Shown here: piece by piece, positions 1 to 45,433 of the stretch | Position numbering within the stretch: the stretch's first letter is position 1 | Layout: each line of letters opens with the position of its first letter | Source of the DNA: Verrucomicrobiota bacterium | Lineage (GTDB): Bacteria > Verrucomicrobiota > Verrucomicrobiia > Opitutales > Opitutaceae | Reading direction: 5' to 3' | Assembly: GCA_016235555.1 (NCBI GenBank) | Contig: JACRKC010000114.1 | Location: forward strand, 124,001-188,000 | Length of the DNA stretch: 64,000 nt | Program-made: the position numbers and the translations under genes | The notes under the pieces: model-generated | What the model was told of the DNA's origin: nothing | What the model saw: only the letters and a program-made list of their open reading frames with translations | Databases searched by the model: none

Positions 1-1860
1 CCTGCGCAGCTCCCGCAGCTGGCGCAGGAGATTCGTGACGAGCTCATCGCCGTCACCGCGAAAAATGGCGGCCACATCGGCCCGAATCTCGGCGTGGTCG
101 AGCTCACGATCGCGCTGCATCGCGTGTTCTCCACGCCGGACGACCAGTTCGTCTTCGACGTCGCCCACCAAGGCTACGTCCACAAGCTGCTCACCGGCCG
201 GCACGGGGAGTTTTTCCGCAAACTCCGCCAGACCGGCGGCGCGAGCGGCTTCCTCTATCGCAGCGAAAGCGAGCACGACGCCTTCGGCGCCGGCCACGCC
301 GGCACCGCGCTCAGTGCCGCGCTCGGCATGGCCACGGCCCGCGATCTGCGCGGCACCGGCGAACATGTGGTCGCGGTGTGCGGCGATGCGGCCTTCACCT
401 GCGGCGTCACGCTGGAGGCGCTCAACAACGTCGTCTCCTCCACGAAGCGCCTGATCGTCATCCTCAACGACAACGAGTGGTCGATCGCCAAGAACGTCGG
501 CGCGATTTCGAGTTACCTCAACCGTATCAGCACGAGCCCCGCCTACAACAAGCTGCACCACGACATCGAGGCGTTCTTCACCAGCTTCCCGACCGGCGTG
601 GAGATGAACCGCGTTTACATGAAGTGGAAGCGTGAGACGAAGGACTTCTTCGTCGGTTCGTCGCTCTTCGAGAAATTCGGCCTGCGCTACCTCGGTCCGG
701 TCGACGGCCACAACCTCGACGCCCTGCTGAAGAACCTCGAATTCGCCCGGCACTGCGATGTGCCCGTGCTCATCCACGTGCTCACGAAGAAAGGCAAGGG
801 GCTCGAGGCCGCGCAGGCCCACCCGGAGAAGTTCCACGGCCTCGGCGCCTTCGATCCGACGACCGGCGAGAGCAAGAAGCCCGCGCCCGGCTCGCCACCG
901 AACTACCAGGATGTCTTCGGCCAGGCGCTCACCCGGTTCGCCAAGGCCGACCGCAACATCGTCGGCATCACGGGCGCGATGCCGAGCGGCACGGGCCTCT
1001 CCCATCTCGCCAGCGAGGTGCCGGCCCAGTTTTTCGACGTGGGCATCGCCGAGGAGCACGCCGTCCTGTTCGCCGCCGGCCTCGCCACGAAAGGCATCCG
1101 GCCGGTGTGCGCGATCTACTCGACGTTCCTCCAGCGCGCCTACGATCAGGTGATCCACGACGTGGCGCTGCAAAATCTCCCCGTCACCTTCTGTCTCGAT
1201 CGCGCCGGCCTCTCGCCCAATGACGGACCGACCCATCATGGGCTTTTCGACCTCTCCTACCTGCGCTGTGTCCCCAACGCCGTCGTGATGCAACCGAAGG
1301 ACGAGGATGAACTCGTCGACATGTTGCACACCGGCCTCACGCATCGCGGTCCGACCTTCATCCGCTACCCCCGCGGCGCCGGCGTCGGCGTGCCGATCAA
1401 GCCGCAACCGGCGGCGCTCCCAATCGGCCACGCGGAGGTCTTGCGCGAGGGGTCAAACATCATGATCTGGGCGCTTGGCAGCATGGTGCAGGACGCCCAT
1501 CAACTCGCCCGCCGCCTCGCCACCGAGGAAAATCTATCGGTCGGCGTGGTGAATGCCCGGTTCGCCAAACCGCTCGATCGCGCGCTCCTGCTCAGCCACG
1601 CCGCATGCATTCCCCTGCTGGTCACGATGGAGGACAACGTCCTCGCGGGTGGCTTTGGCAGTGCGGTGTTGGAGGCGTTGCACGAGGCGGATTGTCCGGT
1701 CGCGGTCGAGCGCATCGGTTGGCCGGACCGCTTCGTGGAACATGGCTCCTCCGCCGAAGGACTGCGCGCGGCCTACGGCCTCTCCCCCGACGACCTCTAC
1801 CGCCGCGTGCTGGACCGGTGGCGCAACCTCAGCCACGAGCGCGTCGCCGCCGCCGTCTGA
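1..1860 (+). CDS. dxs: 1-deoxy-D-xylulose-5-phosphate synthase, N-terminus cut by the window edge
   Basis: Condenses pyruvate with glyceraldehyde 3-phosphate to 1-deoxy-D-xylulose 5-phosphate using thiamine diphosphate, the first step of the MEP isoprenoid pathway; cytosolic. The frame is open from base 1 (reads PAQLPQLAQEIRDEL), so the ATG at 94 is internal and the true start lies outside. 619 residues are visible against about 620 for the family, so little is missing. Motifs seen: NGGHIGPNLGVVELT (substrate histidine region), YVHKLLTGR, the thiamine-binding GDAAFTCG to NDNEWSI stretch, GIAEEHAVLFAAGLA and DRAGLSPNDGPTHHG. The last differs from the common DRAGLVGADGATHQG, so this is a somewhat divergent DXS. 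No T-run terminator is visible on the plus strand behind it. Confidence 0.95.
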   Translation, partial: PAQLPQLAQEIRDELIAVTAKNGGHIGPNLGVVELTIALHRVFSTPDDQFVFDVAHQGYVHKLLTGRHGEFFRKLRQTGGASGFLYRSESEHDAFGAGHAGTALSAALGMATARDLRGTGEHVVAVCGDAAFTCGVTLEALNNVVSSTKRLIVILNDNEWSIAKNVGAISSYLNRISTSPAYNKLHHDIEAFFTSFPTGVEMNRVYMKWKRETKDFFVGSSLFEKFGLRYLGPVDGHNLDALLKNLEFARHCDVPVLIHVLTKKGKGLEAAQAHPEKFHGLGAFDPTTGESKKPAPGSPPNYQDVFGQALTRFAKADRNIVGITGAMPSGTGLSHLASEVPAQFFDVGIAEEHAVLFAAGLATKGIRPVCAIYSTFLQRAYDQVIHDVALQNLPVTFCLDRAGLSPNDGPTHHGLFDLSYLRCVPNAVVMQPKDEDELVDMLHTGLTHRGPTFIRYPRGAGVGVPIKPQPAALPIGHAEVLREGSNIMIWALGSMVQDAHQLARRLATEENLSVGVVNARFAKPLDRALLLSHAACIPLLVTMEDNVLAGGFGSAVLEALHEADCPVAVERIGWPDRFVEHGSSAEGLRAAYGLSPDDLYRRVLDRWRNLSHERVAAAV

Positions 1861-1865
1861 GGTCC

Positions 1866-1899
1866 AAAGAAAAAGCCGCGCCTCTTGCGAAGCGCGGCT
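1866..1899 (-). terminator. Rho-independent terminator for the minus-strand unit
   Basis: A perfect 8-bp stem (agccgcgc at 1874-1881, gcgcggct at 1892-1899) with a 10-nt loop. Read on the minus strand it is followed by TTTTCTTT (1867-1874), the usual U-tract. It lies just past the stop of the minus-strand small gene at 1924. On the plus strand no T-run follows, so it suits the minus-strand unit better than dxs. Confidence 0.75.
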
Positions 1900-1923
1900 G
1901 AAGAATCGGTCGCGGAGCCGGCG

Positions 1924-2160
1924 TTATTTCTTCGCCTCGGCCTTCTTGGCAAGGGCACCCGAGCCGCCGCATTTTTCGCAGTTCTTGCCGGCCTTGGCCG
2001 CCGTGACGCAGCACTCGTGACCGCAAGCTTTGCCGTCCTTCGAGGCCTTGGCGCAGCAGCCCGCGACCTTGGCTTCCTTCTTGCCCTCGGCCGCGAACGC
2101 GAGTCCGGCCGCCAGGAATGAACCGATAATCAGTGCAACGATGGTCTTCTTCAGTTTCAT
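1924..2160 (-). CDS. small exported cysteine-rich protein, unknown function
   Basis: A 78-residue protein with a clear signal peptide: basic start MKLKKT, a hydrophobic core, and a likely cut after AFA near residue 23. The mature part is lysine-rich and has seven cysteines, in GCCAKA, ACGHECC and NCEKCGG, so it could bind metal or form disulfides in the periplasm. I do not recognise a named family. It is the last gene of the minus-strand run ybaB-recR-tRNA-Gly and has its own terminator directly downstream. The cysteine spacing and signal peptide make a chance ORF unlikely. Confidence 0.75.
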   Translation of the reverse strand: MKLKKTIVALIIGSFLAAGLAFAAEGKKEAKVAGCCAKASKDGKACGHECCVTAAKAGKNCEKCGGSGALAKKAEAKK

Positions 2161-2195
2161 GCGTGTGTAGTGTTTTTGTTTTGGGGGTTGAGGAT

Positions 2196-2270
2196 TGGTG
2201 CGGGCGGAGGGAGTCGAACCCTCCTCTCAAGCTTGGGAAGCTCACATAATAGCCGATATACTACGCCCGC
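2196..2270 (-). tRNA. tRNA-Gly (anticodon CCC), CCA encoded
   Basis: On the minus strand GCGGGCG (5' acceptor strand, 2264-2270) pairs with CGCCCGC (2200-2206). The T arm is GAGGG-TTCGACT-CCCTC and the anticodon loop is TTCCCAA, giving anticodon CCC. The discriminator base is A and a genomic CCA occupies 2196-2198. It sits 42 bases after the recR stop on the same strand, so it may be processed from the same transcript. Confidence 0.93.
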
Positions 2271-2312
2271 AAGGAACGCGGGAACGAAAGGGGGATTTCC
2301 TCCGCACCGCAA

Positions 2313-2909
2313 TCACGAATACACCCGCCGGCTGTCGAGGGCACTTTTGAGCGTCACGGAGTCGGCATAGAGCACACCACCCCCGCTCGGCAGGCCGAAG
2401 CCGATCCGCGTGACCTTCACCGGCCGCCCGCCGGGAAGATGCTCGGTCAGGTAGTGGCAGGTGGCCTCGCCCTCGACGTCGTTCGACAGCGCCAGGATCA
2501 GTTCCGCGATCTCGCCCGACTCCACCCGCGCCCGCAGAGCCGCCAGATTGAGATCGTCCGGGCCGACGCCATGGATGGGGGATAGTTTGCCGTGCAAGAC
2601 ATGGTAGGCGCCCCGGAAAGAGGCGCTTCGCTCGATCGCGACGAGGTCGGGCACCTGTTCCACCACGCAGACCACGGATCGGTCCCGACGTTCGTCCGCG
2701 CAGATGGCACAATGCTCGCCCTCGGCCAGATTGCCGCAGCACGCGCAGCGCCGGACCGATCGCGCCGCCTCTTCAAGCGCCACGACCAACGCCGGCAGAC
2801 GGGCCGGCTTTTCGACCAGCAGGTGCAACGCGATGCGCTCCGAGGATCGATAGCCGAGCCCGGGCAGCTGTTTCAGGTGCTGCTGGAGTTTGTCAAACGC
2901 CGGAGTCAT
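2313..2909 (-). CDS. recR: recombination mediator protein RecR
   Basis: RecR works with RecF/RecO to load RecA on gapped DNA during recombinational repair. The 198-residue length is typical. Visible features: the N-terminal helix-hairpin-helix LKQLPGLGYRSSERIALHL, a zinc finger CACCGNLAEGEHCAIC near residues 54-69, a Toprim domain starting VVCVVEQVPDLVAIE, and the conserved NDVEGEATCHYL segment (usually NPTVEGEAT). It lies 20 bases downstream of the ybaB-family gene, the usual ybaB-recR pair; dnaX, often found just upstream, is absent here. Confidence 0.97.
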   Translation of the reverse strand: MTPAFDKLQQHLKQLPGLGYRSSERIALHLLVEKPARLPALVVALEEAARSVRRCACCGNLAEGEHCAICADERRDRSVVCVVEQVPDLVAIERSASFRGAYHVLHGKLSPIHGVGPDDLNLAALRARVESGEIAELILALSNDVEGEATCHYLTEHLPGGRPVKVTRIGFGLPSGGGVLYADSVTLKSALDSRRVYS

Positions 2910-2929
2910 CGGGCGTCAGCCAGCCAGCT

Positions 2930-3238
2930 TCACATGAAACCCGGCATCTGGAACGCCGAGGTCACCTTCTTCATCTCTGCATCGTTGTAATCCTTGGCCT
3001 GCTTCACGGCATCCTGGATCGCACCCAGCACCGTGTCGCCGACGACCTTGGCGTCTTCTTTCAGAAACTCCGGGTCCAGCACCAGTCCGAGAAATCTCCC
3101 GTTTCCGTTGATCTTCACTTTCACGGCGCCGCCACCGCTGGTGACTTCGATTTCCTTGGCGTCGAACTGCGCTTGGAGCGACTCGATGCCACGCTGCATT
3201 TTCTGGGCTTGTTTGAGGAGTTTGCCGACGCCTGCCAT
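2930..3238 (-). CDS. ybaB: YbaB/EbfC family nucleoid-associated protein
   Basis: A 102-residue protein with the family layout: an N-terminal helix MAGVGKLLKQAQKMQRGIESLQAQ, a central strand EVTSGGGAVKVKINGNG, and a C-terminal GDTVLGAIQDAVKQAKDYNDAEMKK helix region. Family members dimerise, bind DNA and are usually encoded beside recR. It is followed after 20 bases by recR on the same strand. Length and motifs match the family closely. Confidence 0.93.
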   Translation of the reverse strand: MAGVGKLLKQAQKMQRGIESLQAQFDAKEIEVTSGGGAVKVKINGNGRFLGLVLDPEFLKEDAKVVGDTVLGAIQDAVKQAKDYNDAEMKKVTSAFQMPGFM

Positions 3239-3283
3239 GTGGTGTTTGGATTGGAAAAAGTCAGTTGAGCGCGGGCCGGCGCG

Positions 3284-4201
3284 CTAATGCGACAACAAAT
3301 TTTCGTAGCCTTCGCGAAAACTCGGATACCGTGGCCGCCAGCCGAGCACGCGCGCCGCCTTCGCATTCGAGATCACCCGGTCCGGCGTCACGCCCGCCCG
3401 CCCCGCCAGAGGCACGCCGCTGAAGCGCGGCAGCGGCCAGCCCGTGCGGTCCACGAGCCACCGCACCACCTCGCGCTTCGCCGTCGGATGGTCGTCACTG
3501 ATGTTCAGCACCTCGTTTGCCACCGTCGGCGGCGCCACGAATGATGCCCAGATCGCCGCCACAATATCATCCCGGTGGACCAGATTCATCCGATGTTCGC
3601 CGTTCCCCGTGACGTCGCCCGCGCGCACCTGTTCGATGAGATGGTGGCGACCCGGCCCGTAGATGCCCGCGAGCCGAAGCACAAACCACCGGCGCGCCGC
3701 GATCCCGCCATCCGCCTCCGCGGTCGCGCCTCGCACCACGGCCTCCGCCTCCAGCAGGATCCGTGCACGCCCACCCATGTTCTCAGTCGGTGCCGTCTCA
3801 TTCACGCAAGCCCCCTCCCCTTGCGGATATACCGAGGTGATGCCGGTGTAGACCAGCGTGCCGCCCGGTCCATTGGCGCGCAGCCAGGCCACCATCGAGG
3901 CATTGCCGCGCACATAGCTGCGCGTGTAGCCATCGATCCCTCCGCCACCCGAACTCACACAACTCAAAACAAAATCCGGCGCCCCCGTCATGGCACGGTG
4001 CCAGCGATCGTCCGCCAAATCGGCGACCACCGTCTCGATGCCGCACGTGCGCAGGGCCTGGGCCTTGGCTTCATTGCGCGTCAACGCCGTGACGCTCATT
4101 CCCCGCGCAACCGCCTGCCGCGCGACCTCGGAGCCAACATAGCCGCATCCGAAGATCACGAGTCGTTTCCCGGCAAGATTTCCATCGGCATCAGCGCACA
4201 T
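3284..4201 (-). CDS. NAD(P)-dependent epimerase/dehydratase-like protein (SDR superfamily)
   Basis: A 305-residue extended SDR-type protein. The N-terminus has a Rossmann dinucleotide-binding motif, RLVIFGCGYVGSEVARQ (residues about 13-29), and the C-terminal half has a sugar-epimerase-like NLVHRDDIVAAIWASF and VLNISDDHPTAKREVVRWL. No clear YxxxK catalytic pair is obvious; STSVYPQG-like TSVYPQGEGACVNE is the nearest match. It resembles the YeeZ group of uncharacterised epimerase-like proteins. The substrate is unknown. It is divergent from the DJ-1 gene, with only 18 bases between the two proposed starts, so one of the starts may be internal. Confidence 0.85.
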   Translation of the reverse strand: MCADADGNLAGKRLVIFGCGYVGSEVARQAVARGMSVTALTRNEAKAQALRTCGIETVVADLADDRWHRAMTGAPDFVLSCVSSGGGGIDGYTRSYVRGNASMVAWLRANGPGGTLVYTGITSVYPQGEGACVNETAPTENMGGRARILLEAEAVVRGATAEADGGIAARRWFVLRLAGIYGPGRHHLIEQVRAGDVTGNGEHRMNLVHRDDIVAAIWASFVAPPTVANEVLNISDDHPTAKREVVRWLVDRTGWPLPRFSGVPLAGRAGVTPDRVISNAKAARVLGWRPRYPSFREGYENLLSH

Positions 4202-4219
4202 GCCTGTTCAACTCATACC

Positions 4220-4771
4220 ATGCCGACCGTTCTCGCAATCCTGGCGGAGGGTTTTGAGGAGCTTGAGGCAACCGCCCCCATCGATCTGTTGCGCCGCGCC
4301 GGCGCGACCGTCACCATCGCCGCGCTCGGCGACGGCATTCACGTGACCGGCCGCAGCGGTCTGACCATGCACGCCGACACCACGCTCGCCGCGCTCACGG
4401 CCGCGGGCGGCGCGCTCGATTACGACTGCGTGTTTCTCCCCGGCGGACCGGGAGTTCGGCTGATGCGAGCGGACCCATGTGTAATCTCGGTCATAAAGCG
4501 CCACCATGAAGCCGGCCGCTGGATTGCCGCGATCTGCGCTGCACCGCTCGTGCTTCACGATGCCGGCATCCTCACCGGCCGTCGTTACACCGCGCATTTC
4601 TCGGTCGCCGACGAACTGCCAGCCATCCTCGCCAAGGAGCGAACGATCACGGATGATCGGATACTCACCTCGCGCGGCGCCGGCACCGCCGTCGATTTTG
4701 GCCTGTTGCTGGTTGAAAAACTTTTTGGCCCGGAAAAGTCCCTATCCGTCGCGCACGCGATCTGTGCCTGA
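4220..4771 (+). CDS. DJ-1/PfpI family protein
   Basis: A 183-residue class I glutamine-amidotransferase-like protein of the DJ-1/PfpI/ThiJ group; members act as stress-protective deglycase, glyoxalase or chaperone-like proteins. The start MPTVLAILAEGFEELEA at ATG 4220 gives the normal family length, whereas the open frame extends far upstream with no family similarity. The acidic residue of the active site (EGFEELE) and the nucleophile Cys106 in AAICAAPLVL are present, followed by VDFGLLLVEKLFG. Its start is almost back to back with the divergent epimerase-like gene. Confidence 0.92.
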   Translation: MPTVLAILAEGFEELEATAPIDLLRRAGATVTIAALGDGIHVTGRSGLTMHADTTLAALTAAGGALDYDCVFLPGGPGVRLMRADPCVISVIKRHHEAGRWIAAICAAPLVLHDAGILTGRRYTAHFSVADELPAILAKERTITDDRILTSRGAGTAVDFGLLLVEKLFGPEKSLSVAHAICA

Positions 4772-4817
4772 TACCTCTCATTATCAACGGTATTGCAAAA
4801 TGTGCCGATTTAGGTTG

Positions 4818-4875
4818 GCTCTCAGAGCATGGGGGTAATACCCCATTCCCGTTTCCTGCGGCAACTACCCCATTC
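4818..4875. promoter_or_regulatory. dyads and repeated taccccattc motif upstream of the polysaccharide locus
   Basis: In the 176-base gap before the first locus gene there are two adjacent dyads, GCTCT-c-AGAGC (4818-4828) and ATGGGG-gtaata-CCCCAT (4829-4846). The 10-mer taccccattc occurs twice in direct orientation, at 4839-4848 and 4866-4875, 27 bases apart. The position in front of a 40-kb unidirectional locus suggests regulator binding sites, but the first hairpin could also help terminate the upstream DJ-1 gene. No consensus -35/-10 pair was found. Confidence 0.4.
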
Positions 4876-4947
4876 TCACCCTATCGCGTCACCTCGGATT
4901 GGAAGTGACCGTGCGAAGCTGTCGGCCGACCCCTCAATGCCTGATCC

Positions 4948-7900
4948 ATGTGCGGTATAGCCGGATGGATTGATCCGGCCGCCGCGCCTGACACCCGCGA
5001 TGCAGCGGTGTCGCGCATGTGCGAGGCGATGGTGCATCGTGGTCCGGACGACGCCGGCATCGCCTCGCTTTCGGCGGCCACCCTCGGTATGCGCCGCCTC
5101 GCGATCTTCGATCCGGCCAACGGCCATCAACCGATGGTTTCGCCCGATGCGCGGCTCACCCTGGTCTTCAATGGCGCGATCTATAATTTCCGCGCGCTCC
5201 GCGACGAACTCGCCGGCGGCTGGCAGTTTCGCACCCAGTGCGACACCGAAGTTCTGCTCGCGGCCTTCGCCCGCTGGGGCGAGGCGTGCCTCGGACGACT
5301 CCGCGGGATGTTTGCTTTCGCGGTGTGGGATGAGCGCGAACGCACCCTCTTCCTCGCTCGCGACCCCTTTGGCATCAAGCCGCTCTACTACCGCCACGAC
5401 GGCCAGCGGTTGCTCTTCGCGTCGGAGCTCAACGCTCTGCTCGCGGCCGGCGCGTTTCCCGCGGAACTCGATCCGCTGTCAGTCGCGGACTTTCTCGCTT
5501 GGCTCGCCGTGCCCGTGCCGCGCTCGATCTACCGGGACGTGTTCAGCCTGCGCCCCGGCGAGTGTGCCACTTTTCGGGCGGGCCGCCTCGATATCCGCTC
5601 CGCGTGGAGTTTCCGCTCGCTGCCCGCGGACGTGCGGCCGTGCGCCTCGGCCGCGGAATTTTCGTGCGAGCTCCGCGCGCGACTCGACGACAGCATCCGC
5701 GCCCACGTCGTCGCGGATGTGCCGGTCGGGGCGTTCCTGTCCGGCGGACTCGACTCCGCGATCGTGACCGGGCTCATGGCGCGCGCGACGGGCGCGCAGC
5801 TCAAGACCTTCTCGATCGTTTTCGACGAAAGTGAATATTCCGAGGCGGGCCACGCCGCCGCGACCGCCCGGCACCTTGGAACTTCGCATCACGAGAGCCG
5901 GCTCACCGGCGCCGCCATCGCCGCCGATCTCGAGCGCATCGTCACCGCCCTCGATCAACCCACGGGTGACGGCATCAACACCTACTACGCCAGCCGGGCG
6001 GCCCGGGCCGGCGGGGTCACGGTAGCACTCTCCGGCCTCGGCGGCGATGAACTCTTCGGCGGCTACCCGAGCTTCCGCAATATTCCGCGGTTTTCGCGCG
6101 CCCTGCCGTGGTGGTGGAGCGTGCCCGAGGCCATCCGGCACCGCGTCGTGGAGCGTTTGCGCCATGGTGACACCCGCCAGCAAAAACTGGCCGATGTTCT
6201 TGCCTACGCGCGCACCCCGCACGAACTCGGCGCGCTCCAACGCCGGGTGTTCTCCGAGACCACGCGCCTCACTCTGCTGGCACCCGACGCCCGCGCCGCG
6301 GTGCAGGGCCGTTCGCCGTTTCACCCGGAGCTGCCCGTGCTGTCCGCCGATCTCGCCGCCGCCGGGCCGTTCGAGACCGCGAGCGCCTGGGAGCTGCGCA
6401 CCTACATGACCGACGTCCTGCTGCGCGACAGCGACGTGATGAGCATGCGCCATTCCTTGGAACTGCGCGTCCCGTTCGTCGATCGTCCGCTCATCGACTG
6501 GCTCTGGCGGCAGCCGGCGGAGTTCAAGGGCACGCCTCGACACCCCAAATCCGCGCTCTATCACGCCGCGCGTGATCTGCTTCCGGCCGATCTCGCGCGC
6601 CGGCCGAAATGGGGCTTCACCCTTCCGTTTCCCCGTTGGATGAAACACGAGCTGCGGCCATTTCTCGACGAGACCTTCGCCGACGCGAGTGTCGACCGCA
6701 GCGGCCTGTTCGACCGCGCGCAGGTGCAGGCGCTGTGGCGCGATTTCAACTCGCGTGATGACACCCGCCAGTGGTCGCGCGTATGGAGCCTCGCGGTCCT
6801 CGTCGCGTTTGCCAATCGCCGCAGCCCTGCGGCTGCTCCTGCCGGCCATCGCGCGCTCGAGCCCGTCGTGCAATCCGCCCGCCCTGCGTCGCCATCGCCG
6901 GAGCGCCGCGCCCCACCCTCCACGCCGCGACAACCGCCTCACCGCCCGCGCACCAAACCGCGCAGCCGCACCCTGCTGCTCGCCCCGGAGATCTTCGCCT
7001 CCGAGGGCGGCATCGCACGCATCCTCCAGGCTTACCTCAAGGCCCTGTGCGACCTCGCGCCACCGGACGGCGCCGTGCGGTTGCTCGCGCTGAACGACCC
7101 GGCCATCAGTTCGTCCGATCTCCGGCGCAGCGCGAATGACCGACTCGAAGACTGGTTCGCCTGCTCCCGCGACAAGACCCGCTTCGTGCGCGCTGCGTTG
7201 CGCCTGAGCCGCGGCTGTGACCGCCTGATTTGCGGCCACGTCGCGCAGCTCCCGATCGCGTGGCTGGTCAAGCGGCTCCGTCCCCGCCTGCGCTACTTCC
7301 TCGTCGCCCACGGTATCGAGGTATGGCGCCCCTTCAACTTCTCCGAACGTGTCGCGCTGCGCGGCGCGGAGCGGATCCTGTGCGTCAGCGATTTCACGCG
7401 CGGCGAACTCCTCCGCCATTGCCCGCTGCCCGCGGGTCGCGCGGTCGTCCTGCCCAACGCCTTGGATCCGTGCTGCACGATCGCCCCCGGCCGGTCGCTC
7501 GCCGAGTGCCCGCCCGTCATCCTCGTCGTCACCCGCCTCTCCGCCGCGGACCGTTACAAGGGCGTGGATTCCATGATCGAAGCGATGCCCGCGATTCGCG
7601 CCGCGATTCCCGCCGCCCAGCTTCGCATCGTCGGTCGCGGCGACGATCTGTCCCGCCTCCAGGCGCTGCGCGCCCGACTCGGCCTCGCCAACGCCGTCGA
7701 ATTCCTCGGCTACGTCGACGACAACCGCCTCGACCACGAGTTTCACCACTGCCGGCTGTTCGCCCTGCCGAGCGGGAAGGAAGGCTTCGGCCTGGTCTTC
7801 CTTGAAGCCATGGCCCGCGGCCGCCCCTGCCTCGGCGCCCGGGCCGGCGGCGTGCCGGAAGTCATCACGCCCGAGACCGGCGTGCTCGTGGACTACGGCG

Positions 7901-8031
7901 ACGTGCCCGGCATCGCCGCCGCCTGCACCAGCAGCCTTGCCCGCGCCTGGAGCGAACCGGCCATACTCGCGCGCGCCGGCGATTTTTCCTTTTCCAAGTT
8001 CACCGCCAGGCTCGCGGAGCTGATTCGATAA
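4948..8031 (+). CDS. asparagine synthase-like amidotransferase fused to a GT4 glycosyltransferase
   Basis: A 1027-residue single frame with two enzymes. Residues 1 to about 620 are an AsnB-type glutamine-hydrolysing amidotransferase: nucleophile Cys2 in MCGIAGW, the class II glutaminase domain (FNGAIYNFRALRDEL, ARDPFGIKPLYY), and the ATP-pyrophosphatase loop SGGLDS at residues 265-270. A basic, proline-rich linker of about 50-60 residues follows. From about residue 675 there is a GT-B glycosyltransferase with GGIARILQAYLKAL and the GT4 signature EGFGLVFLEAMARG. Polysaccharide-locus AsnB homologues (for example WbpS) amidate sugar carboxylates, so amidation of a uronic acid is plausible. It is the first gene of the locus. 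No frameshift or internal stop separates the halves. Confidence 0.88.
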   Translation: MCGIAGWIDPAAAPDTRDAAVSRMCEAMVHRGPDDAGIASLSAATLGMRRLAIFDPANGHQPMVSPDARLTLVFNGAIYNFRALRDELAGGWQFRTQCDTEVLLAAFARWGEACLGRLRGMFAFAVWDERERTLFLARDPFGIKPLYYRHDGQRLLFASELNALLAAGAFPAELDPLSVADFLAWLAVPVPRSIYRDVFSLRPGECATFRAGRLDIRSAWSFRSLPADVRPCASAAEFSCELRARLDDSIRAHVVADVPVGAFLSGGLDSAIVTGLMARATGAQLKTFSIVFDESEYSEAGHAAATARHLGTSHHESRLTGAAIAADLERIVTALDQPTGDGINTYYASRAARAGGVTVALSGLGGDELFGGYPSFRNIPRFSRALPWWWSVPEAIRHRVVERLRHGDTRQQKLADVLAYARTPHELGALQRRVFSETTRLTLLAPDARAAVQGRSPFHPELPVLSADLAAAGPFETASAWELRTYMTDVLLRDSDVMSMRHSLELRVPFVDRPLIDWLWRQPAEFKGTPRHPKSALYHAARDLLPADLARRPKWGFTLPFPRWMKHELRPFLDETFADASVDRSGLFDRAQVQALWRDFNSRDDTRQWSRVWSLAVLVAFANRRSPAAAPAGHRALEPVVQSARPASPSPERRAPPSTPRQPPHRPRTKPRSRTLLLAPEIFASEGGIARILQAYLKALCDLAPPDGAVRLLALNDPAISSSDLRRSANDRLEDWFACSRDKTRFVRAALRLSRGCDRLICGHVAQLPIAWLVKRLRPRLRYFLVAHGIEVWRPFNFSERVALRGAERILCVSDFTRGELLRHCPLPAGRAVVLPNALDPCCTIAPGRSLAECPPVILVVTRLSAADRYKGVDSMIEAMPAIRAAIPAAQLRIVGRGDDLSRLQALRARLGLANAVEFLGYVDDNRLDHEFHHCRLFALPSGKEGFGLVFLEAMARGRPCLGARAGGVPEVITPETGVLVDYGDVPGIAAACTSSLARAWSEPAILARAGDFSFSKFTARLAELIR

Positions 8032-8057
8032 GATCGGGCCTTCCGTCGCCTCCTGCC

Positions 8058-9023
8058 ATGCCACCGACGTCCAGCCCTCGCTCCAGTCCGCCGACACTTT
8101 CGATCGTCGTTCCGATTTTCAACGAGGTGGAGTGCTTCCCCAAGCTGCTTGAGCGCCTGCTGGTGCTCGCCGGGAGGCTCGAGGGCTGCGAACTGGAAAT
8201 TCTTTTCGTCAACGATGGTTCGACTGATGGCACCGGGGCTCTGCTGGACGCCGCCGCAGCGATGCATCCCGCGGTCAAGGTGTTGCACTTCAGCCGAAAC
8301 TTCGGCCACCAGGCTGCGCTCACCGCCGGCCTCGACCACGCCGAGGGAGACTTTGTCTGCATCATCGACGCCGACCTTCAGGATCCGCCCGAGATCATTC
8401 CCGACCTGCTGGGCCGTGCCCGCGAGGGGTTTGACATCGTCTACGCCCAGCGTCGCAGCCGCACCGGTGAGTCCTGGTTCAAGAAGGCGACCGCCGCACT
8501 GTTTTACCGCCTGCTCTCGGCTGTCTGCCGCGTGCCAATCCCCATGGACACCGGCGATTTCCGGCTCGTGAGCCGGCGGCTCGTGCTGGCGCTCCGCTCG
8601 ATGCGCGAGCCTCACCGCTTTATCCGCGGCATGGTGCCGTGGGTGGGCTTTCGCAGCGTCGCCTTTCCTTACGACCGGCAGGAACGCTTCGCCGGCACGA
8701 CGAAGTATCCCCTGATGAAGATGATTCGCTTCGCCGCCGACGCCGTCCTGTCGTTCTCCAACGTGCCGCTGCGCATCTCCACTTTCATCGGGCTTGGCAT
8801 GACGTGCCTCAGCGCGCTCGGGATTCTCGTCATGCTCTACCTCAGGCTGTTCACCGTTTACACCGTGCCCGGCATTTCGGCCGTCATCTGCCTGATACTC
8901 GGTGTCGGGGGCGTGCAGTTTATCATCCTTGGCATGCTGGGTGAATACGTCGGCCGCATCTTCGAGCAGGGCAAAAACCGGCCGCTCTACGTCGTCGCTG
9001 CGACCGCCAATTTGAAACTCTAG
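8058..9023 (+). CDS. GT2 polyprenyl-phosphate glycosyltransferase (DPM1/GtrB type) with two C-terminal membrane helices
   Basis: A 321-residue GT-A enzyme. The N-terminal catalytic domain opens LSIVVPIFNEVECFPKLLE and carries the metal-binding D104-A-D106 in CIIDADLQDP. The C-terminus has two hydrophobic segments, around residues 240-265 and 275-300, ending GEYVGRIFEQGKNRP, typical of GtrB/ArnC/DPM1-like enzymes that load a sugar onto undecaprenyl or dolichyl phosphate. In this locus it would supply a lipid-linked sugar for a GT-C enzyme such as the membrane proteins at 11642 or 25993. It follows the fusion gene by 26 bases. Confidence 0.9.
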   Translation: MPPTSSPRSSPPTLSIVVPIFNEVECFPKLLERLLVLAGRLEGCELEILFVNDGSTDGTGALLDAAAAMHPAVKVLHFSRNFGHQAALTAGLDHAEGDFVCIIDADLQDPPEIIPDLLGRAREGFDIVYAQRRSRTGESWFKKATAALFYRLLSAVCRVPIPMDTGDFRLVSRRLVLALRSMREPHRFIRGMVPWVGFRSVAFPYDRQERFAGTTKYPLMKMIRFAADAVLSFSNVPLRISTFIGLGMTCLSALGILVMLYLRLFTVYTVPGISAVICLILGVGGVQFIILGMLGEYVGRIFEQGKNRPLYVVAATANLKL

Positions 9024-9028
9024 GCGTC

Positions 9029-10255
9029 GTGTTTTCCTCCCTCGCCAAAACCACCCTCGCGCGCGCCGCCCTGCTGCACGATGCGCCGGTCTATGTGCAG
9101 TTCTACATCACGGCCCGGTGCAATCTTACCTGCCAGCAGTGTAATATCATCTACGCGAATTCGGATGTCCGGGAGTGCACGCTCGACGAGATCAAGCGCA
9201 TCGCGGACAACTTCGCCAGAATGCGCGTCGCGATGGTGCTGCTCACCGGTGGCGAGCCCTTCACCCGCCTCGACCTGCCTGACATCATCCGCGAGTTCAC
9301 CTCGCGCGGGGTGCATGTGCGGATGCAGACCAACGGGCTCGCCACGGACGAACGCATCCAGGCCGTCATCGCCGCCGGCGGCCGCGACATCTCCATCTCG
9401 CTGGATTCGCTCTGGCCCGGCAACCAGGACGACATCAACGGCGGCTTCGCGAAATCGTGGCACGACGCCCTGCGGGCGATGGCTTCATTCACGCGGTATC
9501 TGCCGAAGACCGGCAGCTTCGCCTCGCTCGGTTGCGTCATGCAGCGCGACAACCTGGGCGACATCGAAGATGTCATCCGCTTCGGCACCGCGATCGGCTG
9601 GGTCACTTCGCTCGTGCCGGTTCACGTGACGACGTTCGACCGGCCGTTGAGTTTTCGCACTTTCGACCAGACGAAACGCTGGCAGCCGGCCGAACTGCCC
9701 GCGGTCGATGCACTCGTGGAACGCGTGCGTGCGATGCGCCACGCCGGTTATCTCCTCTACGACAGCGACCAATACCTCGACGACATGAAGCGTTTCGCGG
9801 CCGGCCAGCCGACGACCTGGCGCCGGAAAAACGACGGCGTCTGCGACAGCCCGAACCTTTATTTCGCCGTCCTGCCCAACGGCGACTTCGCCCCCTGCTG
9901 CGATCATCGCCTCGGCTCGCAGATCCACTGCTACGATGCAGATTTCCCCGAAGTCTACCGCAGCCGGGTGTTTCGCGCCGAAGTCCGCACCGTCACCGGG
10001 GCGTGCCCCGGCTGCCTGTTCGGCAGCTACCCCGAAATGACGATCGCAATGCGTTATCTCGCCGCCAAGTGGGAGCGCGTGAAGCTTTTCCTCGCCGCCC
10101 CGCCGGAAAAAAAATGGCCGGTCACCTACGAGCAGATGCTCGCCATGGCCGGACGTATTCGCACCGAGCCGCGCGAACGCATCTCGCTGCCCGGGCATCG
10201 GCGCCGCCTCGCGCTCGACGAGCGCTCGGACCCGGCGATCGCGCCAACCGCATAG
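9029..10255 (+). CDS. radical SAM protein with SPASM-like C-terminal cysteines
   Basis: A 408-residue radical SAM enzyme started by GTG at 9029, five bases after the previous stop. The [4Fe-4S] motif is C31-NLT-C35-QQ-C38, and the SAM-binding region reads VLLTGGEPFTRLDL. A C-terminal cysteine set (VCDSP, PCCDHR, IHCYD, ACPGC) resembles a SPASM/twitch auxiliary cluster domain. Family members modify peptides or small metabolites; in polysaccharide loci some act on sugars or lipid-linked groups. The substrate cannot be read from sequence. The methyltransferase at 10262 starts six bases downstream, so the two probably act together. Confidence 0.87.
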   Translation: MFSSLAKTTLARAALLHDAPVYVQFYITARCNLTCQQCNIIYANSDVRECTLDEIKRIADNFARMRVAMVLLTGGEPFTRLDLPDIIREFTSRGVHVRMQTNGLATDERIQAVIAAGGRDISISLDSLWPGNQDDINGGFAKSWHDALRAMASFTRYLPKTGSFASLGCVMQRDNLGDIEDVIRFGTAIGWVTSLVPVHVTTFDRPLSFRTFDQTKRWQPAELPAVDALVERVRAMRHAGYLLYDSDQYLDDMKRFAAGQPTTWRRKNDGVCDSPNLYFAVLPNGDFAPCCDHRLGSQIHCYDADFPEVYRSRVFRAEVRTVTGACPGCLFGSYPEMTIAMRYLAAKWERVKLFLAAPPEKKWPVTYEQMLAMAGRIRTEPRERISLPGHRRRLALDERSDPAIAPTA

Positions 10256-10261
10256 CCTCCT

Positions 10262-11479
10262 GTGCCCAAAAAAATTCTCTACGAAAGTGCCGTGCACCAA
10301 TTCGTCCGGGCCGCCCAGGCGCGCCGCGAGCAATTGGCGGGGAGCGCCCCGCGCCAGGCCGAGACGCTGGGGCGTTGGGTCGCCACACTCTCCTTCGAGA
10401 ATCCCGGAGCGGGTGCGATGAAGGTCAGCTGGCCCGGCCCGGCGGCGGGCACGCGGACCCTCGCCTTGCAGGCGGCGAAGTTCTACACCCGCGGCGACGC
10501 CGCCGCCCATTCCGCCCGCCAGGTCGACGCCGGTCTCACGTTTGCCGACGACCGGGTGATGGCGGCGAACCACGCGTATTTTGCCGCCGAGCTGCGGGCG
10601 ATCCTGGTCGCGGCCGGGCTGCCCGAACTCGCGGCGCCGGCCACCCCCTCGCTAGACACCGCGCGCAAGCACGCGGAGGAAGCCTTCCACGACGCATGGG
10701 CCGCCAGCGAAGACACCTCCGCCATCAACGTCCGCGCGCGCAACGAAGCCTGCACCGCGCCGGAAATGCGCCACCTCCGCGCCGCCCTGGGCGACCTGCA
10801 CGGACGCCAGCTTCTCGACGTCGGCTGCGGCCTGGGCGAGGCGAGCGTCTATTTTGCCCTCGAGGGTGCGACCGTGACGGCGACGGACATTTCTCCCGGC
10901 ATGTGCGAAACGGCGCAGCGCCTCGCCGCCGCCAACGGCGTCACGCTCACCACCCATGTTTCCGCCATCGAGGATCTCGGCCTGCGCCCTGACCACCGGT
11001 TCGACGTGATCTACACCGGGAACACGCTGCATCACGCCGACATCCCGGCGATGCTCGACAACATCCTGCCGCACCTCAAACCCGACGGAGTCTTCGTCAG
11101 CTGGGATCCCGTGGCCTACAACCCGCTCATCAACGTCTATCGCGCGCTCGCCACCAAAGTCCGCACCGCCGACGAACACCCGCTGCGCCTGCGCGACGTG
11201 CGCGCGATCACGCAGCGTTTTGCCCACGCGGAAGTGCGCTGGTTCTGGTTCACCACCCTCGTGATCTTTGTGATCATGGCGGTGGTCCAGCGCCGCAGCC
11301 CGAACGAAGAGCGCTACTGGAAAAAAGTCGTCGACGAGGCCGACCGCTGGGCCTGGCTTTACCGCCCGCTCGAAATGCTCGACACGTTTCTGCTGCGCTT
11401 CCTCCCCTTCCTGCGTCCGCTTTGCTGGAACGTCGCGATCGTCGCGCGCGGGCCGTTGCCATCGCGCCGCGCCGGCTAG
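10262..11479 (+). CDS. class I SAM-dependent methyltransferase
   Basis: A 405-residue protein with GTG start at 10262. The central SAM-binding motif I, LLDVGCGLGEASVYFA (around residue 184), is followed by TVTATDISPGMCETAQ and YTGNTLHHADIPAMLDNILPHLKPDG, typical of Methyltransf_11/25. The N-terminal 170 residues are not recognised. A hydrophobic segment, FTTLVIFVIMAVVQ, and a hydrophobic tail near the C-terminus suggest membrane association. It directly follows the radical SAM gene, as often seen in modification modules. The methyl acceptor is unknown. Confidence 0.85.
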   Translation: MPKKILYESAVHQFVRAAQARREQLAGSAPRQAETLGRWVATLSFENPGAGAMKVSWPGPAAGTRTLALQAAKFYTRGDAAAHSARQVDAGLTFADDRVMAANHAYFAAELRAILVAAGLPELAAPATPSLDTARKHAEEAFHDAWAASEDTSAINVRARNEACTAPEMRHLRAALGDLHGRQLLDVGCGLGEASVYFALEGATVTATDISPGMCETAQRLAAANGVTLTTHVSAIEDLGLRPDHRFDVIYTGNTLHHADIPAMLDNILPHLKPDGVFVSWDPVAYNPLINVYRALATKVRTADEHPLRLRDVRAITQRFAHAEVRWFWFTTLVIFVIMAVVQRRSPNEERYWKKVVDEADRWAWLYRPLEMLDTFLLRFLPFLRPLCWNVAIVARGPLPSRRAG

Positions 11480-11641
11480 GCTCCCACCCTATCTGACCAC
11501 CTTCGTGACAAGTGTGACGAAGCTTTCCCCTTCGGGCGAATGTTGCCTGGCGCCTGCCGCTCACGGCCCGACCCGCGGTGAAGGACCGGGGGCTTTCGGT
11601 CGCCCGCTGAGCCTCGCCCCGATCTTCCGATCGTCCTTCCC

Positions 11642-13568: not shown

Positions 13569-14417
13569 ATGACCGTCCCCCCCGGCAGCCGGGCCGAACC
13601 CGCCCCCACCGTTACCCTCGAACCGGGTCGAACCGAGGCCAATTACTGGCGCGACCTGTGGCACTACCGCGAGCTGCTTGGCTTCCTCGCCTGGCGCGAT
13701 GTGAAGGTGCGCTACAAGCAAGCCGTGCTCGGCGCGGCCTGGGCGGTCATTCAACCTGCCGTGCAGACGGTGCTGCTGTGGTTCGTGTTCGGCAAACTCG
13801 CCAAGATGCCGGACGGCGGGATGCCCTATCCGCTCATCGTGTTGAGCGGCCTGCTGCCGTGGCTGCTGTTCACCGGAGCATTCGGCGGCGCCGGCAACAG
13901 CCTCGTCGGCAATTCGCACCTCATCAGCAAGGTCTATTTTCCGCGTCTCGTCGTCCCGATTTCGGCCCTGGCCGTGGCGACCGTGGATTTCGGCGTGATG
14001 CTGGCCCTCGCGTTGCCCGTGATCATCGTGCTGGGCGGTGTCGTCGGCTGGCAGTTGTTGCTGCTCCCGCTCTTCGTGCTGCTCACCCTCGTCCTCGCGT
14101 TGGGCGCCGGTCTCTGGATCACGGCCTTGACCGTGAAATACCGGGACTTTCGCTTCATCACGCCTTTTCTCCTGCAAGTCGGCATGTTCGTCACGCCGGT
14201 GGGCTACAGCACCGACTTCCTGCCGAACTGGCGCGACCTGCTCGCGCTGAATCCCCTGATGGGCATCATCAACGGCATGCGCTGGTGCCTGTTCGCCGGA
14301 CGGACGGATCTCCACCTGCCGAGCGTCGGCCTCGCGGTGCTGCTCTCCGCCTTGATGCTGGCGAGCGGGCTCTGGTATTTTCGCCAGACGGAGCGCCAGT
14401 TCGCCGACGTCATCTAG
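13569..14417 (+). CDS. wzm: polysaccharide ABC transporter permease (Wzm-like)
   Basis: A 282-residue ABC-2 type permease. The N-terminal ELLGFLAWRDVKVRYKQAVLGAAWAVIQP is the cytoplasmic gate-helix signature of O-antigen and teichoic-acid exporters, followed by about six membrane helices. The partner ATPase starts 14 bases downstream. Together they would move a finished undecaprenyl-linked glycan across the inner membrane. The ATG at 13569 fits the family length. Confidence 0.92.
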   Translation: MTVPPGSRAEPAPTVTLEPGRTEANYWRDLWHYRELLGFLAWRDVKVRYKQAVLGAAWAVIQPAVQTVLLWFVFGKLAKMPDGGMPYPLIVLSGLLPWLLFTGAFGGAGNSLVGNSHLISKVYFPRLVVPISALAVATVDFGVMLALALPVIIVLGGVVGWQLLLLPLFVLLTLVLALGAGLWITALTVKYRDFRFITPFLLQVGMFVTPVGYSTDFLPNWRDLLALNPLMGIINGMRWCLFAGRTDLHLPSVGLAVLLSALMLASGLWYFRQTERQFADVI

Positions 14418-14431
14418 CGCCCCTCCCCCGG

Positions 14432-15661
14432 ATGTCTCAAGAATACGCCATTGCGGTCGAAGAGCTCTCCAAACGCTACGTGATCGGTCACGCAGTGGCC
14501 CACGACACGTTTCGCGACCGACTGGGGCACGGCCTGCGCGGGCTGTTTCGCCGCACGGCGCCCCGGAACGAGGAGGAATTCTGGGCGCTCCGCGACGTGT
14601 CTTTTCACGTTCGGCCCGGCGAGGTCGTGGGGGTGATCGGGCGCAACGGCGCGGGCAAGTCGACCCTGTTGAAAGTTCTCTCCCGGATCACCGAACCCAC
14701 TGCGGGACGCGCCCGGCTCCACGGCCGCGTCGCTTCGCTGCTCGAGGTGGGCACGGGCTTCCACCCGGAATTGACCGGCCGGGAGAACATCTTTCTCAAC
14801 GGCGCCATTCTCGGGATGCGCCGCACCGAGATCCGGCGCAAGTTCGACGAGATCGTGGCCTTCGCGGAAGTCGACCGGTTCATCGACACGCCCGTGAAGC
14901 GCTACTCCAGCGGCATGTATGTGCGCCTGGCGTTCGCCGTCGCCGCCCACCTTGAGCCCGAAATCCTCATCGTCGACGAGGTCCTCGCCGTCGGCGACGC
15001 GGCGTTTCAAGACAAGTGCCTCGGCAAGATGGAGTCGATTGTGCGAGGCCAGGCGCGCACGATCCTGTTCGTCAGCCACAATGTGAGCGCGATCACCCGG
15101 CTGTGCAGTCGATGTGTGCTGCTCGACCAGGGCCGTCTCGTCGCCGATGCCACACCCGAGGCGGCGGTCAGCGCCTATCTCGCCGCGGGGCAGGCCCACT
15201 CGACCAGCGGCATCGACCTTTCCCGGACGACCCCCTCGGCGGAGTCCCCGATCCGCCTGCTTTCCGTGGTCTTCAATGGGGGCGCGCCGCTGCTGAACCG
15301 CCGTCCGCTGCGGATCGTGCTGCGCCTGCACGCCGCGCTGCCGGTTGAAAAATTCGGTCTCGGCATCGGCTTCTGCCACCTCGACGGCCGGCGCGTGCTG
15401 ACCCTGGAGAGCGACTACCACAACGGCTTTCTCCGCGCGCCGCACGCGGGCGAACACACCGTCGCGGTGGAAATTCCCTGTCTGGATCTCGTTCCCGGAC
15501 GCTATCGCATCGATGTCGGCGCCTTCGGTGGCAGCCGCCAAAACTACCACTATGCCGGCGACTGTGCCGTGGCGGAAGTCCAGCCCAGTCCGGACACACC
15601 GGCGCACGTCCACGGCATCAGCGGCGACTGGCGGCCGGGACTTCAGTGGCAATTGCTGTAG
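14432..15661 (+). CDS. wzt: polysaccharide ABC transporter ATPase with C-terminal carbohydrate-binding domain (Wzt-like)
   Basis: A 409-residue ATPase starting at ATG 14432 (MSQEYAIAVEELSKRY); the longer upstream frame is a shadow of the permease. Walker A is GRNGAGKST at residues 70-78, the ABC signature YSSGMYVRLAFAVA, and Walker B ILIVDEVLAVGD. From about residue 265 there is a beta-rich domain like Wzt_C (FGLGIGFCHLDGRRVLTLES to PGRYRIDVGAFGG), which in known systems recognises a terminal modification of the glycan before export. This implies that one of the methylated or otherwise capped ends made in this locus is the export signal. Confidence 0.93.
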   Translation: MSQEYAIAVEELSKRYVIGHAVAHDTFRDRLGHGLRGLFRRTAPRNEEEFWALRDVSFHVRPGEVVGVIGRNGAGKSTLLKVLSRITEPTAGRARLHGRVASLLEVGTGFHPELTGRENIFLNGAILGMRRTEIRRKFDEIVAFAEVDRFIDTPVKRYSSGMYVRLAFAVAAHLEPEILIVDEVLAVGDAAFQDKCLGKMESIVRGQARTILFVSHNVSAITRLCSRCVLLDQGRLVADATPEAAVSAYLAAGQAHSTSGIDLSRTTPSAESPIRLLSVVFNGGAPLLNRRPLRIVLRLHAALPVEKFGLGIGFCHLDGRRVLTLESDYHNGFLRAPHAGEHTVAVEIPCLDLVPGRYRIDVGAFGGSRQNYHYAGDCAVAEVQPSPDTPAHVHGISGDWRPGLQWQLL

Positions 15662-44053: not shown

Positions 44054-45433
44054 ATGGCAAAGTCCAATCACCTGACGGCGATTTCGCTGCTGGCCCTCGA
44101 CACCCTCGCCACGTTCGTGGTCTTCAACGCGACGGCCTGGTTTCGCGGCGTCGCCTCGGCCGGACACTGGATCGTCGAACCGCTGGTGGTGCCGGTCGCC
44201 CTGATCATCTTTTCCATCTACCTGATCGAGGGCTACCGCACCGGCACCAATTTCCTCGGAGTCGACTACACCAGCCAGCATGCCATCGCCCTCGCCGGCG
44301 CGACGCTCGGCACGCTGCTGCTCACCCACGCGTTCATCCCGAGTGGCTTCGAACTGCAGTCGAGCCGCATCGTCGTCATCTTCAGTTTTGTCACCCTCAT
44401 CCCCCTCAGCCTCAGCTACCGGCGGCTGTTTCATCATCGCGCCCTGCGCACCCGCGGGCGGCGCAGCATCGTCTTCCTTGGCGATCGCACGAGCTGTCTC
44501 GAATTCGCCGACGAGTGCCACCGGCTCGGCATGGACCAGGGTATTGTTTTTTCCGTGGTCACGGGCACGTCGACCCCGCCCTTCGGACCCGGCGACCGCC
44601 ACCCGCTCCGGCTCTTCGGCGAGGTGCTCGAAGAGATCGAGACGGGGGCGACGGCCGTGGAGGCCATCGTGCTGCGCGAGTCCGCCCGCGAGTTTTCACC
44701 GGAGATTTCCCGGCGCCTTGTCAGCCTCTATTTCGACGGCGTGCCCACCTACACCCTCGAGCTTTTTCACCAGGTCTACTGGCGCAAAATCCCCCTCTAC
44801 CGCCTCAACCAGACCTGGCTCTTTCAGGAGGGCTTCCAGATCGCGCGCGATCCCGCCTTCGAACGCCTCAAGCGCGCCAGCGATATCGCGCTCGCCGCCG
44901 TGGGGCTCGTGCTCGCCGCGCCCCTCATCGCCGCCGGGGCGCTCGCCGTGTGGCTCAACGACCGCGGCCCCGTGTTCTTCTTCCAGCAGCGGGTCGGCAA
45001 GAATCACGCGAAATTCCCGCTGGTGAAACTCCGCACGATGCGCGTGACGCCCGAGGACGGCGATCTCTACACCCGCCGGGACGATCCGCGCATCACCCGC
45101 GTCGGCAACTTTCTCCGCAGCACCCGCCTCGACGAACTCCCGCAACTCTGGAACGTGCTCCGCGGCGACATGAGCCTCATCGGCCCGCGCGCCGAATGGG
45201 ACCGGCTCGTGGAGCGCTACGAACGCGAGATCCCCTGCTACTACTTCCGCCACCTCGTAAAACCCGGCATCACCGGCTGGGCGCAAGTCAGCTACCCGTA
45301 TGGCGCGAGCACCGAGGACACGATTCGCAAGCTCGAATACGACCTCTACTACATCCGCCACTTCTCCTTCCGCCTCGACGCCACGATCGTCTTGAAGACG
45401 ATCCACATCATGCTTTTCGGCAAGGGCCGGTGA
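44054..45433 (+). CDS. polyprenyl-phosphate sugar phosphotransferase (bacterial sugar transferase family)
   Basis: A 459-residue membrane enzyme of the WbaP/WcaJ family, which transfers a sugar-1-phosphate to undecaprenyl phosphate to start glycan assembly. The N-terminal 130 residues form about four hydrophobic segments with a short CoA-binding-like domain ([22 protein letters not shown]). The C-terminal catalytic domain reads [76 protein letters not shown] and YRHFSFR-like end. It is the last gene of the locus, immediately before a strong terminator. Confidence 0.92.

Follow-up and report, generated by a model that had tools for sequence, protein, structure and literature searches.

An in-frame fusion of an AsnB-type amidotransferase and a GT4 glycosyltransferase is a recurrent variant of a conserved gene pair in Opitutaceae polysaccharide loci

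The window, the whole 64,000-nucleotide stretch of Opitutaceae DNA analysed here, carries a locus bounded by dxs-recR-epimerase (94-4201) on one side and a pyridine-nucleotide oxidoreductase gene (45514-46902) on the other. Between these boundaries lie genes for glycosyltransferases, methyltransferases, acyltransferases, an ABC exporter and a Bac_transf sugar transferase. The gene order at the locus head is recR-epimerase-asnB-GT4-wzm-wzt, with asnB and GT4 joined in one reading frame (Table 1) and with GT4 separated from wzm by four extra genes (8058-13465). These encode a GT2 glycosyltransferase, a radical SAM protein, a methyltransferase and a probable membrane protein, a relative of which follows GT4 in locus L007; no homologue of the GT2 was found at E<=1e-15 among the 23 relatives' loci listed. 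We take the permease to be Wzm from family knowledge and, on the same ground, the Bac_transf protein to be a candidate initiating phosphoglycosyltransferase. The ATPase matches PF00005 at 78.5 bits and PF14524 (Wzt_C) at 29.4 bits, just below the cut-off of 30.4. Together with the glycosyltransferases, the Bac_transf gene and a permease recognised through its homologues in relatives, it identifies an ABC-transporter-dependent polysaccharide locus, which bears out the setting assigned to the fusion by the original prediction, made from the DNA letters. Pfam named no domain for the window ORFs at 11642, 23819, 29151, 32183, 34878 and 40586, and a scan of 4100-8200, on which we do not draw, gave three terminator-like sites against 2.3 expected and a single promoter-like site, which is on the minus strand.

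Table 1 Features of the fusion gene and of the polysaccharide locus around it, in window coordinates
Feature	Position	Strand	Basis
AsnB-type amidotransferase part (residues 1-629)	4948..6834	+	Pfam, NCBIfam, motifs, folds
Disordered linker (residues 630-669), basic, rich in Pro/Ala/Ser/Arg/Thr	6835..6954	+	pLDDT, composition
GT4 GT-B glycosyltransferase part (residues 670-1027) and stop codon	6955..8031	+	Pfam, folds
GT2 glycosyltransferase, next gene	8058..9023	+	best NCBIfam matches PgfS and ArnC-type, both below cut-off
ABC transporter permease, called Wzm	13569..14417	+	homologues downstream of GT4 in relatives
ABC transporter ATPase, weak Wzt_C match, assigned start	14420..15661	+	PF00005, PF14524
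Bac_transf sugar transferase, far end of locus	44054..45433	+	PF02397, 208.4 bits

The same surroundings recur in relatives. Of the 18 loci that hold both domains, 15 have a wzm homologue 3' of GT4; none was seen in L007 (which has a short flank), L036 and L037. Relatives have wzt homologues as well. A recR or epimerase gene lies upstream in 12 of the 18 (L007, L008, L011, L026-L030, L033, L034, L038 and L040), the flank being short or ending early in some of the remaining loci. Gene content was surveyed with 17 queries, and the DJ-1-like gene is left out of these results.

The fusion gene (4948-8031, plus strand) has an ATG start, is open throughout and encodes 1027 residues in three parts: an AsnB-type amidotransferase, a disordered linker and a GT4 glycosyltransferase. 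The predicted single uninterrupted frame is thus present, with both domains complete. Pfam returned the same AsnB and GT4 families from the whole protein and from the two halves scanned apart, a check that had been proposed with the prediction, and all matches exceed their cut-offs. The AlphaFold2 model, computed from a 42-row alignment of the window and locus proteins, has a mean pLDDT of 91.1 and a pTM of 0.68, and in structure comparisons both domains resemble solved folds across most of their length. In the model both domains are well defined and the segment that joins them is unstructured, and at this pTM it lends no support to any docking of one domain on the other.

The amidotransferase part combines an Ntn glutaminase with Cys2 and an ATP-pyrophosphatase part with SGGLDS (265-270), SGLGGDE (362-368) and K554, so that the anticipated Cys2 nucleophile and SGGLDS loop are both there. 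Pfam places GATase_6/7 at residues 33-166 and Asn_synthase at 241-616 (296.6 bits). The Cys directly after Met1, the GATase domain and the Asn_synthase domain with its SGGxDS loop assign the protein to the AsnB superfamily. Among NCBIfam profiles, TIGR01536 scores 438.5 bits, above its cut-off of 267.1, and TIGR03108 (the XrtA/PEP-CTERM, WbpS-type amidotransferase) scores 432.4 and 434.1 bits over nearly the whole profile, below its cut-off of 816.9; hence, we do not assign the protein to TIGR03108. For residues 2-629, the solved structures with the highest Z include the hydroxyamidotransferase TsnB9 (7ylz; Z 45.6, rmsd 2.9, 552 aligned), and E. coli AsnB (1ct9) follows with Z 43.7, rmsd 3.1 and 476 aligned. 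Both are 27-29% identical to this part and are without a glycosyltransferase domain.

Two motifs depart from E. coli AsnB. The glutaminase-pocket Glu of that enzyme (NGEIYN), which has a role in glutamine binding, corresponds to Ala77 in the fusion (window 5176-5178). Within the Opitutaceae-type clade the pocket residue is Ala or Cys in 28/28 AsnB hits, of which 27 were matched by pattern and 1 was read by eye, and among the remaining hits it is Glu in 82/83 (77 by pattern, 5 by eye); the pattern went unmatched in 22/106 AsnB rows, and 6/111 hits were read by eye. Because the Glu is also absent from the pocket of other Ntn amidotransferases, Ala77 bears on glutamine use and not on fold membership, and the Ala or Cys shared by the clade makes glutamine use by the AsnB domain less than certain. 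The second motif is SGLGGDE, found where E. coli AsnB has SGEGSDE, whose Glu is important for aspartate; the motif of a true asparagine synthetase is therefore lacking.

The C-terminal part matches Glyco_transf_4 at 745-841 (35 bits) and Glyco_trans_1_4 and Glycos_transf_1 at 854-996 (107-109 bits), and its EX7E pair is E945/E953. Its highest-Z folds include the GT4 enzymes BshA (6d9t; Z 36.9, rmsd 2.8, 338 aligned), HepE (4xsp; Z 34.5, rmsd 2.4, 327 aligned) and PimB' (3oka; Z 34.1, rmsd 2.9, 336 aligned), all compared with residues 670-1027 and 20-25% identical, so donor and acceptor do not carry over from them to the fusion. A GT-B fold, Pfam GT4 domains above cut-off and the EX7E pair make this a GT4 glycosyltransferase. 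A failure to match GT-B profiles, which would have told against the prediction, did not occur. The GT4 part alone had no plasmid match at 1e-30. In one relative, G003 (L119, C1:3542000-3556000), the GT4 gene keeps its usual position behind the epimerase gene, accompanied by wzm and wzt, and the genome is without an AsnB-family match at E<=1e-20; the GT4 can therefore serve without amidation in G003.

Between the domains, the expected basic, proline-rich linker is found as a segment with pLDDT below 50. It contains no in-frame ATG and a single GTG (residue 641), at which no ribosome-binding site was seen. Across the six fused loci described below the linkers are 47-65 residues long and differ in sequence, and the only in-frame ATG among them, in L008, is at linker position 2, inside the last AsnB helix in the model of the window protein. 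Identity of the window protein to its five fused homologues is 67-74% in AsnB and 67-75% in GT4 but 17-38% in the linker. By codon position, G+C is 0.80/0.75/0.75 in the linker, against 0.71/0.53/0.82 and 0.72/0.51/0.88 in the two domains, and the linker, lacking the domains' pattern, is thus only loosely constrained. Tethering, with a raised local concentration, fits a long disordered linker better than a rigid channel does.

We then ask how common the fusion is. Relatives were the best 80 of 585, plus 38 genomes looked at, so that all counts describe samples. For the junction, 23 Opitutaceae-type loci were chosen from 105, leaving out L014, L015, L016, L019, L032, L041 and L042 (one part missing or cut off), and gene starts were taken as the nearest start codons. 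The two parts are fused in frame at 6/23 junctions (L001, which is the window, L007, L008, L026, L027 and L029), and at two more (L011 and L028) they share a single frame with a stop within the junction. At 10/23 the parts are separate genes, with a 4-base overlap between the stop of asnB and the nearest start (L010, L013, L020, L030, L031, L033, L037, L038, L039 and L040), L020 being counted here with an AsnB that is read in three frames; at L034 and L036 the start comes after the stop. At the last three, L009 (G021), L012 and L035, no GT4 was seen within the fetched locus, and that of L035 stops right after an ATGA overlap and a GT4-like start.

The proposed search for other fused homologues thus gave five further loci, all from other genomes. 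Since these carry the same in-frame fusion, with different linkers, an assembly join is very unlikely and we reject an artefact. The prediction had also been staked on close relatives not having two separate genes: two genes are in fact found at 14/23 junctions, and the window fusion nevertheless stands, shared by five loci. Hence, the fusion is real and recurrent, a lineage-level variant of a conserved amidotransferase-glycosyltransferase gene pair that is probably translationally coupled, as the 4-base overlap of stop and start suggests.

Trees of the AsnB and GT4 parts (20 rows each; L012, L016, L019, L020, L032, L035 and distant rows left out) indicate that the change of state has recurred. 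Fused L029 is sister to split L031 with support of 100/99 in the AsnB tree and 100/97 in the GT4 tree, and a further tree that also held distant rows paired them too. Holding the six fused rows together gives p-AU values of 0.00171 (AsnB) and 0.000119 (GT4), so that a single clade of fused rows is rejected under the model used, in trees with many weak inner branches. One group of all eight long-linker rows is likewise rejected (p-AU 0.00138 and 0.0133). The minimum is four changes between fused and split on each tree, with gain and loss not distinguishable, and fusion or splitting has therefore occurred more than once. The overlapped pair is widespread and also found on a Bradyrhizobium plasmid, which makes it the likelier ancestor. 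The split locus L030 (8001-10987) is 68% identical to the window in AsnB and 47% in GT4, and its two parts are placed differently by the two trees, with weak support; judged from these sequences, the GT4 partner may have been exchanged at the junction.

The plasmid (NZ_CP094524) has an asnB-GT4-ABC permease-ABC ATPase module with the same domains in the same order and the 4-base overlap, the ABC permease and ATPase genes lying about 0.9 kb after the pair. This two-gene module, also found in L010, L030, L033, L038 and others, differs from the window in making two proteins instead of one, and we found no tested function for it. A second kind of fusion occurs in an Omnitrophota MAG (L086:8001-10970, 989 aa), where AsnB is likewise fused N-terminally to a glycosyltransferase. 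However, its partner is GT9 heptosyltransferase-like (94.7 bits), its linker is not proline-rich and its AsnB is 34% identical to that of the window. AsnB-glycosyltransferase fusions thus recur, and no plasmid record covered 80% of the length of the L086 protein. Among the 79 hits of L043-L105, three (L086, L056 and L045) extend more than 80 residues beyond the AsnB domain, with no further Pfam domain in L056, and three have a GT4-like motif in the ORF after AsnB by a crude scan with a strict pattern, to which we attach no weight. The original prediction knew of no characterised example of this fusion, and none was seen in the literature searched, mostly papers outside subscription, which also yielded no biochemical result for the fusion protein or its close relatives. 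What is new is the fused form of an already known amidotransferase-glycosyltransferase gene pair, whose function we infer.

The reading we favour, and to which we give about even weight, is that in-frame fusion of an older asnB-GT4 pair made a bifunctional enzyme of polysaccharide biosynthesis that both amidates and transfers a carboxylated sugar, probably a uronate. The AsnB domain would take ammonia from glutamine, adenylate the sugar carboxylate (most likely that of a nucleotide-linked uronic acid, after the example of the WbpS/WbqG pathway) and yield a uronamide, which the tethered GT4 domain would transfer to the growing lipid-linked glycan. The predicted coupling of uronic-acid amidation to transfer is a plausible proposal. 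Several findings weigh against this reading: neither PF03721 gene of the genome is in the window, TIGR03108 scores below its cut-off, the usual pocket Glu is replaced throughout the clade, G003 keeps GT4 without AsnB, the pTM gives no sign of docking, and the linker is without a codon-position pattern. The genome encodes two PF03721 proteins above cut-off, both on other contigs and neither in the window, so uronates are probably available. WbpS/WbqG, here compared through the family profile TIGR03108 (eps_aminotran_1), resemble the fusion in AsnB architecture and in belonging to a surface-polysaccharide gene cluster; the fusion differs in scoring below the profile cut-off, in being joined to GT4 and in having Ala for the usual pocket Glu. 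In the available part of PMC7468200, deletion of WbpS (PGN_1234) in P. gingivalis leads to loss of a uronamide. A wbpS mutant of H. pullorum has a truncated glycan according to the accessible text of PMC6025236, which gives its last sugar as HexNAcAN in the results and HexNAcA in the discussion, and a figure legend of PMC2943079 names WsfA, an asparagine synthase homologue, as part of an S-layer glycan cluster. The further suggestion that the fusion is perhaps the locus's first dedicated step is not supported, given that the locus has an initiating-type Bac_transf gene and G003 has the GT4 without an AsnB-family match.

It is possible, if on the unlikely side, that the fusion is a fortuitous read-through that adds nothing, the domains working as they do when apart, a reading compatible with the other views of the substrate. 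The poorly conserved linker without a coding pattern, the sister placement of fused L029 and split L031 (100/99), the at least four changes of state on each tree and the in-frame stops in L028 and L011 all point this way. However, the frame is kept in six loci with linkers of 47-65 residues, an argument that is partly circular given that an open frame defined 'fused', and the split pairs, with their 4-base overlap, already look translationally coupled.

We consider it doubtful that AsnB instead amidates another carboxylate (lactyl, amino-acid or glyceric-type) on a glycan or lipid-linked precursor while GT4, in one and the same step of assembly, transfers a sugar unrelated to it. The AsnB fold does serve many acids, with hydroxyamidotransferase, beta-lactam and carbapenam synthetases among the fold matches, the window has no PF03721 gene, and G003 indicates that GT4 does not have to receive its donor from AsnB. 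Against this, the tested precedents that we found for AsnB homologues in glycan loci, as far as the available parts of PMC7468200 and PMC6025236 go, are uronamides. The tight pairing of AsnB with GT4 also suggests a shared substrate.

That the fusion is the cell's asparagine synthetase, located in and fused into a glycan locus by chance, is improbable: it is the sole AsnB-family protein at E<=1e-20 in a 98.6%-complete genome (one further glutaminase-like match is weak, at 23 bits) that has AsnRS and in which AsnA was not found, and it exceeds the TIGR01536 cut-off, but GatB is present and Asn-tRNA is obtainable by another route, 16/32 good relative genomes (own genome excluded) are without an AsnB-family match at E<=1e-20, so that the lineage does not need one, SGLGGDE replaces SGEGSDE, and the gene stands at the head of a glycan locus.

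On the favoured reading of amidation and transfer of a carboxylated sugar, the fusion points to two enzymes sharing one intermediate, with sugar amidation linked to a glycosyltransferase near an ABC exporter. In this lineage a single locus exists naturally in fused, split and AsnB-less forms, which makes it testable whether amidation precedes transfer and whether it affects glycan export. As a long shot, the AsnB-GT4(-Wzm-Wzt) set might make one conserved amidated sugar, an adaptor or cap, that marks the otherwise variable surface glycans of Opitutaceae for ABC export; the altered pocket (Glu to Ala or Cys) would then mean that the nitrogen comes from an unusual donor or that AsnB depends on its tethered partner, and the fusion would be a self-contained amidating glycosyltransferase.

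Some relatives may have lost or broken the locus. In L042 (8001-10397), asnB breaks off near residue 319, and next comes the oxidoreductase gene with which the window's locus ends; in L120 (G017:C42, 3312-6747) it breaks off near residue 299, followed by about 1.1 kb of other DNA and then the oxidoreductase gene; and in L012 (G001) the 3' end of asnB continues into the Bac_transf gene. In all three, the glycan locus looks as if it had been deleted. G021 carries its AsnB and GT4 parts apart, at two contig ends (L118, C39 and L117, C43), and each part retains linker-like sequence. Both adjoin foreign DNA, the ends of which are, by eye, seemingly inverted relative to one another; a repeated mobile element may have been inserted in the linker.
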